Assembly: GCA_913058495.1 (NCBI GenBank)
Contig: CAJXQC010000005.1
Coordinates: forward strand, 1-64,000
Length of the DNA: 64,000 nt
Direction: 5' to 3'
Source: an uncultured Balneola sp.
Lineage (GTDB): Bacteria; Bacteroidota; Rhodothermia; Balneolales; Balneolaceae
This document shows positions 30,624 to 55,753 of this stretch, piece after piece. The first letter of the stretch is position 1. Each line of letters opens with the position of its first letter. The position numbers were made by a program, and so were the translations under genes. Under the pieces are notes generated by a model. It was not told where the DNA came from, made no database searches, and was given only the letters and a program-made list of their open reading frames with translations.

Positions 30624-30670
30624 GTAGGGTACTATTTTTGATATAATATAAGGAAACAACTGCAACACCG

Positions 30671-30713
30671 TAACACCATCACACTAATTAAGTGTTATAG
30701 TGTGATGGTGTTA
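30671..30713. repeat. long perfect palindromic stem between rsmD and the DUF3822-like gene
   Basis: TAACACCATCACACT (30671-30685) is followed 13 nt later by its exact reverse complement (30699-30713), a 15 bp stem. An internal alternative stem ACACT/AGTGT also exists, and GTGTTATAG is repeated directly at 30692-30700 and 30708-30716. There is no T run, so it is not a standard terminator. It could be a REP-like element or an mRNA-stabilising structure. Confidence 0.75.
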
Positions 30714-30732
30714 TAGTTTGGTTGTTGTAAGG

Positions 30733-53663: not shown

Positions 53664-53999
53664 ATGCCCTACATTGTAACTGAACCTTGTGTTCAATGTA
53701 AATATACTAACTGCGCTGCTGTTTGCCCTGTAGACGCTTTTCGGGAAGGACCTAATTTTCTGACTATCGATCCAAATGAATGCATTGATTGCGATGCATG
53801 TGTTTCAGAATGTCCGGTAGAAGCTATTTACCCTGATGACGAAGTACCTGAAAAGTGGGAACATTATATCGAATTGAATGAACGTCTTGCAGAACAGTGG
53901 GAAGACAGAGTAATCAATGAAACTCAGGACGCTCTCCCCGATGCAGATGAATGGGCAACCAAAGAAGATAAATTAGGCGAGCTTCAGGAAGAGTGGTAG
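53664..53999 (+). CDS. fdxA: 7Fe ferredoxin (FdxA type)
   Basis: The 111-residue ferredoxin carries eight cysteines: 9, 12, 17, 21 in CVQCKYTNCAAVCP and 40, 43, 46, 50 in CIDCDACVSECP. The spacing x2-x4-x3 in the first motif matches the 3Fe-4S site and the second the 4Fe-4S site of FdxA. The conserved EGPNFLTIDPNECIDC fits the family. The C-terminal tail ends with LQEEW. It transfers electrons in the cytosol; the partner is unknown. Confidence 0.94.
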   Translation: MPYIVTEPCVQCKYTNCAAVCPVDAFREGPNFLTIDPNECIDCDACVSECPVEAIYPDDEVPEKWEHYIELNERLAEQWEDRVINETQDALPDADEWATKEDKLGELQEEW

Positions 54000-54005
54000 T
54001 TTTAA

Positions 54006-54088
54006 GTCATTCCGAACTTGTTTCGGAATCTTATACTTTTCGAAGCCTTGATTAAACATTAAAGATCCTGAAACAAGTTCAGGATGAC
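54006..54088. repeat. imperfect REP-like palindrome (long inverted repeat)
   Basis: A 27 nt arm (54006-54032, starting GTCATTCCGAACTTGTTTCG) is complementary to 54062-54088 (starting AAGATCCTGAAACAAGTTCA) with only four mismatches, separated by 29 nt. Both arms belong to the CCTGAAACAAGTTCAGGATGAC repeat class that I recall as widespread in Bacteroidota and some other bacteria. It lies just after fdxA, before folP, and could act as a terminator or a remnant of a mobile repeat. Confidence 0.85.
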
Positions 54089-54142
54089 CTATTTTTATTT
54101 GACATCTCAAAACTTGATTTAAACTTTACTACTCCCCAAATA

Positions 54143-54925
54143 ATGGGGATCATAAATGCCACTCCTGACTCATTCAGCGATGGAGGTAAGTACATTCATG
54201 TAGAGCGCGCACTCGACGGGATCCATATTATGCGCAGAGATGGAGCTTCTATCATTGATATTGGTGGCGAGTCTACCCGTCCGGGATCGGATCCGGTTTC
54301 TGAACAGGAAGAAATAGATCGAGTTATTCCTGTTCTTGAAAAAGCTGTACAGACATTCCCAGATCTCGTTTATTCTATCGATACAACTAAGTTTAAAGTA
54401 GCTGAAGAAGCGTTGAAAATCGGAGCAGGGGTAATTAATGATATAAGCGGTTTACAGAAATCTCCAGCTATGGCAGAACTTGCAGCTGAACACGACGCAG
54501 CCTATGTGATTATGCATTCTCAGGGAGATCCGAAAACAATGCAGGATGCTCCGAAATATGATGATGTAATAGAAGATTTACTTCAGTTTTTTGAAAACAA
54601 GGTGGCTTTTGCTCAGTCAAAAGGAGTGCAGAAAATAATTATTGATCCGGGTATTGGCTTTGGCAAAACTCTGGAGCATAATTTAAAATTACTCGCCCAT
54701 CTTGATAAATTCACAAAAATTGGCGTTCCTGTGTTAATTGGAGCATCACGGAAATCGATGATCGGAAAAATTCTGGACGAGAGACCTGCTGATGATCGGT
54801 TGATCGGAACGGTTTCAGTTCATTATGATGCACTCATGAAAGGAGTAAAAATACTTCGTGTGCATGATGTTAAGGAAGCTTCCGATTCATTACGTATATT
54901 CCAAGCAATTCAATCACAACGCTAG
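54143..54925 (+). CDS. folP: dihydropteroate synthase
   Basis: DHPS joins p-aminobenzoate to dihydropterin pyrophosphate in folate synthesis and is the sulfonamide target. Motifs are NATPDSFSDGG at residues 5-15, GGESTRPG, DTTKFKVAEEAL, NDISG, IIDPGIGFGKT and GASRKSMIG. With ATG 54143 the 260-residue product begins MGIINATPDS, so it lacks the N-terminal 15-25 residues usually found before this motif. The frame is open upstream and there reads FDISKLDLNFTTPQI, which is homologous in style but has no ATG, GTG or TTG. cdaA follows after 12 nt. Confidence 0.93.
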   Translation: MGIINATPDSFSDGGKYIHVERALDGIHIMRRDGASIIDIGGESTRPGSDPVSEQEEIDRVIPVLEKAVQTFPDLVYSIDTTKFKVAEEALKIGAGVINDISGLQKSPAMAELAAEHDAAYVIMHSQGDPKTMQDAPKYDDVIEDLLQFFENKVAFAQSKGVQKIIIDPGIGFGKTLEHNLKLLAHLDKFTKIGVPVLIGASRKSMIGKILDERPADDRLIGTVSVHYDALMKGVKILRVHDVKEASDSLRIFQAIQSQR

Positions 54926-54937
54926 ACGGCCACTACA

Positions 54938-55753
54938 TTGTTTCCCATCGGATTTTTAGAATTCGGAATAAAGGATTTCATCGAAACCCTCATTATAGCA
55001 GGGGTTCTGGTATATCTGTATCGATGGATCAAAGGGACTTTTGCAATTCAGGCTACCATTGGGATCTTTTTTGTGATCCTGATCAATTTTATAATCCGTT
55101 TACTGGGTTTTGAAACCATCAATTTCATTCTCAAAAGTATTCTGGATGTAGGTATTCTGGCGGTGTTTATTCTTTTCCAACCGGAAATCAGAAAGCTTTT
55201 ATACAGAATTGGTAATAACACCAGTTTCGATCGCTTCTTTACCAGAACGGGATCAAATGAAATGATCGATGAGGTAATTGATGCCACTAAAAAAATGGCA
55301 AAAGACAGAACCGGAGCACTAATCGTATTTGCACGTTCTTCTTCGCTACAGGACTTGGTAGACGCCGGGGTAAAAATTGATTCAGCAGTTAAAGCCGAAT
55401 TACTTACAACTATCTTTCAAAAAGATACTCCACTTCATGATGGTGCAATCGTGATCAGGAGCAATAGAATTGTAGCTGCAAGTTGTTATTTGCCCATCTC
55501 ACAAAACCCGAATATTGCTCAGTCTTTTGGTACACGTCACCGTGCAGCGGTTGGTATTAGTGAAACCAATAATGTACTTGTGCTGATAGTGTCGGAAGAA
55601 ACAGGTCGTGTTTCTCTTGCCAGAAACGGAACCCTGAAAAGTGGATTAACAATTCAAAAACTCCGTGCTGAAATGGAAGAAACTTTCGGTAAAGGCGAAT
55701 TTGATTCAGATATGAGTTTTGGTGCTTCCCAGACAGAGATGAATTTGAAATGA
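54938..55753 (+). CDS. cdaA: diadenylate cyclase CdaA
   Basis: CdaA converts two ATP to cyclic di-AMP, a messenger controlling potassium and osmotic balance. The 271-residue protein starts at TTG 54938, giving MFPIGFLEFG. Three membrane segments (about 13-30, 37-56, 62-80) precede the cytosolic DAC domain with LHDGAIVIRSNRI and GTRHRAAVGISE, the catalytic and ATP-binding motifs. It has the same architecture as CdaA of Bacillus. folP lies 12 nt upstream, a linkage I recall in other Bacteroidota. Confidence 0.93.
   Translation: MFPIGFLEFGIKDFIETLIIAGVLVYLYRWIKGTFAIQATIGIFFVILINFIIRLLGFETINFILKSILDVGILAVFILFQPEIRKLLYRIGNNTSFDRFFTRTGSNEMIDEVIDATKKMAKDRTGALIVFARSSSLQDLVDAGVKIDSAVKAELLTTIFQKDTPLHDGAIVIRSNRIVAASCYLPISQNPNIAQSFGTRHRAAVGISETNNVLVLIVSEETGRVSLARNGTLKSGLTIQKLRAEMEETFGKGEFDSDMSFGASQTEMNLK

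Follow-up and report, generated by a model that had tools for sequence, protein, structure and literature searches.

The folP gene of an uncultured Balneola sp. raises the question of where translation of its dihydropteroate synthase (DHPS) begins, and whether a palindrome directly upstream has removed the original start. The gene lies in a 64,000-nucleotide stretch of contig CAJXQC010000005.1, analyzed as a whole and referred to here as the window, in a genome of Balneola type; among named records, the nearest is Balneola sp. EhC07, with a DHPS that is 96% identical.

The folP locus and its reading frame

The 5' neighbor of folP is an fdxA-type 4Fe-4S ferredoxin gene (53664 to 53999, forward strand; NCBIfam NF045490 FdxA, 8.7e-41; Pfam DUF3470 and Fer4), and its 3' neighbor is a cdaA-type diadenylate cyclase gene with a TTG start (54938 to 55753, forward strand; PF02457, 1.3e-43; PF19293). 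The folP core, read from its sole in-frame ATG, spans 54143 to 54925 on the forward strand and matches TIGR01496 (4.7e-98) and PF00809 (1.8e-86). Its identity as DHPS is clear from the profile search, in which TIGR01496 scores 332 bits against a curated cutoff of 162.6, and folP gives the only DHPS match in the genome. Resemblance to the EhC07-type genome (G007) ends just past cdaA, at about 55750, where the next gene is repositioned or inserted.

Upstream of the ATG, the folP frame is open from 54056, following a TAA at 54053 to 54055, and contains no ATG, GTG, or TTG before 54143, as the sequence-only reading had stated. That reading was also right that this segment encodes FDISKLDLNFTTPQI (54098 to 54142), which aligns with the normal DHPS N terminus; by homology alignment, 13 codons at 54104 to 54142 (forward strand) account for ISKLDLNFTTPQI. 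Since the residues before 54143 align in this way, what appears to be ordinary coding sequence is skipped, and folP has the pattern of a gene with a noncanonical start, with none of the three usual codons upstream of conserved sequence. Among the rare codons proposed earlier as starts, CTG is present in frame at 54068 and ATC occurs twice (54065 and 54104), whereas this genome has no in-frame ATT there. The missing start is not an assembly artifact, because the closest relative shows the same pattern. The region ahead of folP in Balneola sp. EhC07 (L061, G007) shares these features.

A five-genome clade without a canonical upstream start

Comparison of eight genomes of the genus places the window's genome (G000) in a group of five, with G007, G003, G006, and G001, in which the canonical upstream folP start is absent; the DHPSs of these four relatives are 93 to 96% identical to that of the window. 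The genus outgroups have canonical starts, a GTG at codon -11 in G004, an ATG at -19 in G002, and a TTG at -19 in G005 (codon 0 being the position of ATG 54143). The spacer between fdxA and folP contains a REP dimer in G000 and G007, a GGTTATT-type palindrome in G003 and G001, and an AATTATG-type palindrome in G006, and in none of these five Balneola genomes does the folP frame contain an ATG, GTG, or TTG before the conserved MGI core, regardless of the palindrome in the spacer.

A canonical upstream start is present in 74 of 80 distinct folP loci of the Balneolales family and order, and 79 of the 80 have ATG as codon 0. The six exceptions are the five-genome clade and one unrelated genome (G086). 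The upstream start is kept in 73 of the 80 loci despite an ATG at codon 0, and outside the six exceptions no locus depends on that codon. Orthologs that begin at the same ATG with no homology ahead of it, proposed as evidence against a lost start, were not found: the upstream sequence is homologous, and it is there that the 74 loci carry their canonical start. Six of 117 distinct loci identified with a first motif have no canonical folP start at codon -3 or farther upstream. A looser motif recovered 36 named loci that lack the first one and allowed all 80 named loci to be read, of which the four Balneola relatives alone are without a canonical upstream start; one fetched locus (L173) matched no motif. 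In G086 (locus L160), which lies outside the clade, the folP frame opens after the stop codon with GTC ATC AGC, with a GGAG six nucleotides before the ATC, and the ATG of its relative G088 stands at the same codon count as the GTC.

Candidate start codons

We lean slightly to AUC 54104 over ATG 54143, and tentatively regard this clade-shared, in-frame AUC (54104 to 54106, forward strand) as the most likely start of DHPS translation, based on comparative sequence. It is at codon -13 in G000 and G007 and at codon -11 in G003, G006, and G001, and it is the sole near-cognate codon above codon -1 that is common to all five clade genomes, codon -1 being ATA in each. Its position corresponds to that of the GTG start of the outgroup G004, and in G006 the folP frame starts just four codons above it. 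Translation from AUC 54104 would yield a 273-residue DHPS of normal length, and an AlphaFold model of this form has a mean pLDDT of 89, with strand 1 formed by residues 12 to 18 and residues 1 to 3 poorly ordered. Several features argue against the AUC. No Shine-Dalgarno-like sequence precedes ATC 54104, whereas the ATC of infC has a conserved AAGAGG; the outgroup G002 has an ATC at codon -13 as an ordinary internal codon, such that it may be an ancestral isoleucine codon and not a chosen start; and a single base change would restore ATG but is seen in none of the five clade genomes.

Initiation at AUC has a likely precedent in this genome, because infC has a conserved ATC without a canonical start before it. 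All eight genus genomes have ATC GCA at the 5' end of infC with AAGAGG upstream (L211 to L218), and in at least five of the eight the open frame has no in-frame ATG, GTG, or TTG before it. An ATG lies a few codons 3' of the ATC in G004 and G005 and could in principle be used, but there is none in the codons shown for G000 and its closest relatives. The AAGAGG of infC is present although just 4 of 40 genes in the window have a Shine-Dalgarno-like tetramer. Noncanonical infC starts are described elsewhere, ATT in Escherichia coli and ATC in Streptomyces (PMC5472188), and folP resembles the infC genes of that account and of this genus in that a conserved ATC stands at the expected start position and is preceded by none of the three canonical codons; it differs in having no counterpart of the strong Shine-Dalgarno-like AAGAGG that infC keeps. 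If started at AUC, folP would be translated at a low and possibly IF3-sensitive rate, from a start of the infC kind. A comparable case outside infC is Streptomyces sigR, with a GTC start reported to be repressed by IF3 (PMC5472188), which resembles folP as a gene whose rare start would hold its level low; the sigR start is described in the same source as tested by mutation and Western blotting, whereas that of folP is proposed from sequence. An open-access literature search returned no paper on folP or dihydropteroate synthase with a non-AUG or UUG start, nor on its start codon in the Bacteroidetes.

The strongest competitor, and a realistic possibility, is that the upstream start has been lost and that translation begins at ATG 54143, the preceding segment being an untranslated relic. 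This ATG is the sole canonical start in the open folP frame, substitutions upstream of it appear relaxed, and the resulting 260-residue form would retain the whole Pterin_bind domain. In the model of the AUC-started protein the ATG is residue 14 and strand 1 begins two residues earlier, at residue 12, so a start at 54143 is predicted to cost two strand residues and not the domain. Short DHPS N termini do occur, as the Sul1 profile has three positions before the equivalent of ATG 54143; Sul1-type DHPS resembles the shorter form in having few residues before the conserved core, although it is three residues longer, and with a start at ATG 54143 no other DHPS in the set examined would be as short as this one. 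Against this start, no locus beyond the six exceptions is without an upstream one, even though 79 of the 80 have an ATG at this position, and ATG 54143 sits within a predicted small CCCC/GGGG hairpin. A methionine that precedes glycine is usually removed by methionine aminopeptidase, and initiation at 54143 would thus expose the glycine and take away a nearly invariant methionine.

Several sequence comparisons leave ATC 54104 and ATG 54143 close to each other as candidates. With a start-context score built from 40 window starts, the ATC of the five genomes ranks at the 74th to 100th percentile of 1,099 internal ATGs and their ATG 54143, with its A-rich context, at the 75th to 92nd, and the score thus does not tell the two apart; the same ATG ranks at the 90th to 97th percentile in the three outgroups, where it is internal. 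Within the segment from ATC to ATG, three of eight variable columns are at third positions (control pairs, 19 of 30; p 0.13), and 8 of 33 aligned columns vary, compared with 39 of 107 among four-fold sites (p 0.10); neither comparison demonstrates coding constraint. Bases around the ATC are predicted to be less paired than those around ATG 54143 in all five genomes, though by a hair in G001 (0.63 versus 0.61).

Other routes to DHPS are unlikely. They include the use of differing near-cognate codons in each species (TTA, ATT, ATA, or CTG), a frameshift from an out-of-frame ATG at 54084, or a leaderless message, and in their favor are the 12-codon frame that ATG 54084 opens and the in-frame ATT codons also present in G003, G006, and G001. 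None of these alternatives is common to the five clade genomes, however, and ATG 54084 is within a REP unit missing from three of them. CTG 54068 was considered separately as a clade-wide start and rejected; it lies inside the REP dimer, and the G006 frame holds no CTG.

The palindrome is a dispersed REP dimer

The palindrome upstream of folP has arms of 30 nucleotides at 54003 to 54032 and 54062 to 54091, which are 83% complementary and spaced by 29 nucleotides, and it ranks first among the inverted repeats of the window. From tag to tag it spans 54006 to 54088; it is REP-like and close upstream of folP, as had been noted, although the distance to ATG 54143 is 54 nucleotides and not the 55 given earlier. 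The predicted RNA fold of 54000 to 54160 has an energy of -41.7 kcal/mol (z -6.24), which none of 200 shuffles equaled. Rfam matches at the palindrome score far under the gathering thresholds and are mostly to microRNA models that score the long hairpin, and an RNA family was rejected as its identity. A further long inverted repeat is present in the window at 30656 to 30728, with 31-nucleotide arms that are 81% complementary and spaced by 11 nucleotides.

By the genome-wide consensus, the palindrome consists of two 27-nucleotide REP units arranged head to head, unit 1 at 54006 to 54032 on the forward strand and unit 2, inverted with its tag outward, at 54062 to 54088 on the reverse strand. Each unit starts with a GTCA tag and folds alone into an 8-bp stem with a 5-nucleotide loop, and the two units also pair with each other. 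The stems are ATTCCGAA/TTCGGAAT on the left and ATCCTGAA/TTCAGGAT on the right, from which it can be seen that paired bases differ together. There are 44 units in the genome with at most one mismatch, compared to none for a reversed control, and 45 with a second search pattern. NGTCA is found ahead of the stem in 29 of 32 distinct units (by eye, N is G in 17, C in 6, A in 4, and T in 2). Most units have a CTT tail. About five close inward-facing pairs were seen by eye among the 44 units of this 47-contig draft; the folP copy is a head-to-head dimer.

Di Nocera et al. (2013, PMC3733652) describe a CGTC superfamily of REPs that occurs in five phyla, Bacteroidetes among them; its units usually form head-to-head dimers, and no transposase is dedicated to them. 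As characterized there, they have a CGTC tag (TGTC or CCTC in many), a stem of 8 to 9 bp beginning with AT, a loop of 4 to 5 nucleotides, and a CCA-type tail that fits most but not all (PMC3733652). The Balneola unit agrees with that description in its AT-initial 8-bp stem and 5-nucleotide loop (ATCCTGAA-CTTGT-TTCAGGAT), the outward GTC tag in the dimer, its tens of copies, and the absence of a transposase close by; it departs from it in the first tag base, which is C in just 6 of 32 units, and in its CTT rather than CCA tail (PMC3733652). The palindrome is thus a dispersed REP dimer, located in the fdxA-folP spacer here and in one close relative, that resembles the published CGTC type; with its CTT tail, it is not called a member. 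No REP unit was present in any of the 20 Y1_Tnp loci fetched from 41 genus matches, and a RAYT partner that would mobilize the unit as a REPIN was rejected. One unit lies about 320 nucleotides past the 3' end of a RAYT-like transposase gene on contig 31 of the window's genome (L278, 561 to 1148), an adjacency that could be due to chance.

The cause suggested in the sequence-only reading, loss of the folP start codon through insertion of the REP dimer at the 5' end of the gene, is very improbable: the dimer ends just 15 nucleotides before ATC 54104 with one arm in the open frame, but G003, G006, and G001 are equally without a canonical upstream start although their spacers contain no dimer of this kind, so the loss does not follow the repeat. 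Both branches of that earlier proposal, a rare start codon or loss of the start and secondary use of ATG 54143, stand once insertion is dropped as the cause. In a wider version, ancestral turnover of some palindrome may have eroded the folP start.

Across the Balneolaceae, the fdxA-folP spacers of different genera contain palindromes of four or more types that are unrelated in sequence, and 31 of 79 spacers beat their shuffles at p ≤ 0.05, with 40 mononucleotide shuffles each as a weak null. Several types have a 7-nucleotide period (GGTTATT and AATTATG) and are found elsewhere in the genus genomes too. A different family of the order has a conserved hairpin rich in G+C (AAGCGCTTTGTCC, a 4-nucleotide loop, and GGGCAAGGCGCTT, with variants) within the 5' coding part of folP itself (L021, L023, L024, L026, and L030). 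An unusual similarity of the G000 and G007 spacers was considered and rejected: 3 of 143 positions differ, compared to 22 of 113 four-fold sites in folP, and 13% of 143-nucleotide windows are as similar.

Weak starts of folP and cdaA and their implications

In 34 of the 74 family and order loci with a canonical folP start, the upstream start codons are TTG or GTG without any ATG, at places that are fixed within genera, such as the TTG at codon -16 in every locus listed for group g4. The cdaA gene, found in 42 of 48 loci (the window and L001 to L060) and not in the other six, has only a TTG or GTG start in 40 of those 42, a conserved weak start on a c-di-AMP synthase gene. The start of fdxA is ATG in all 80 family and order loci, with none weak. 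The genomes share ancestry, and the folP, cdaA, and fdxA counts are therefore not independent. Prokaryotic starts overall are reported as approximately 80% AUG, 12% GUG, and 8% UUG (PMC9845219). The weak folP and cdaA starts look like a family habit with the Balneola clade at its far end, and an AUC start on folP would be the extreme of this habit on folP and the cdaA that follows.

If the AUC start is correct, folP would be one of very few bacterial genes known to begin with a codon other than ATG, GTG, or TTG, and gene callers would be clipping the N terminus of an enzyme that is essential and a drug target in this clade's folate pathway; should ATG 54143 be the start, the clade would have the shortest DHPS N termini in the set examined. 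In either case, apparent damage to a gene start is not necessarily due to a mobile repeat beside it.

A bolder and doubtful reading is that folP in this clade joins infC as an AUC-initiated gene subject to discrimination by IF3. IF3 is reported to repress starts other than ATG, GTG, and TTG (PMC5472188), and one-carbon metabolism, which supplies the formyl group of the initiator tRNA, is described as interacting genetically with IF3 through FolD (PMC7949028); an AUC-started folP would link the two. Folate, and hence the formyl supply for initiator tRNA, would then rise when IF3 is scarce relative to ribosomes, and the start codon would couple translation initiation and one-carbon metabolism in a feedback loop. 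Under this IF3-feedback reading, the weak folP and cdaA starts of the Balneolaceae would represent the same down-tuning in a milder form.
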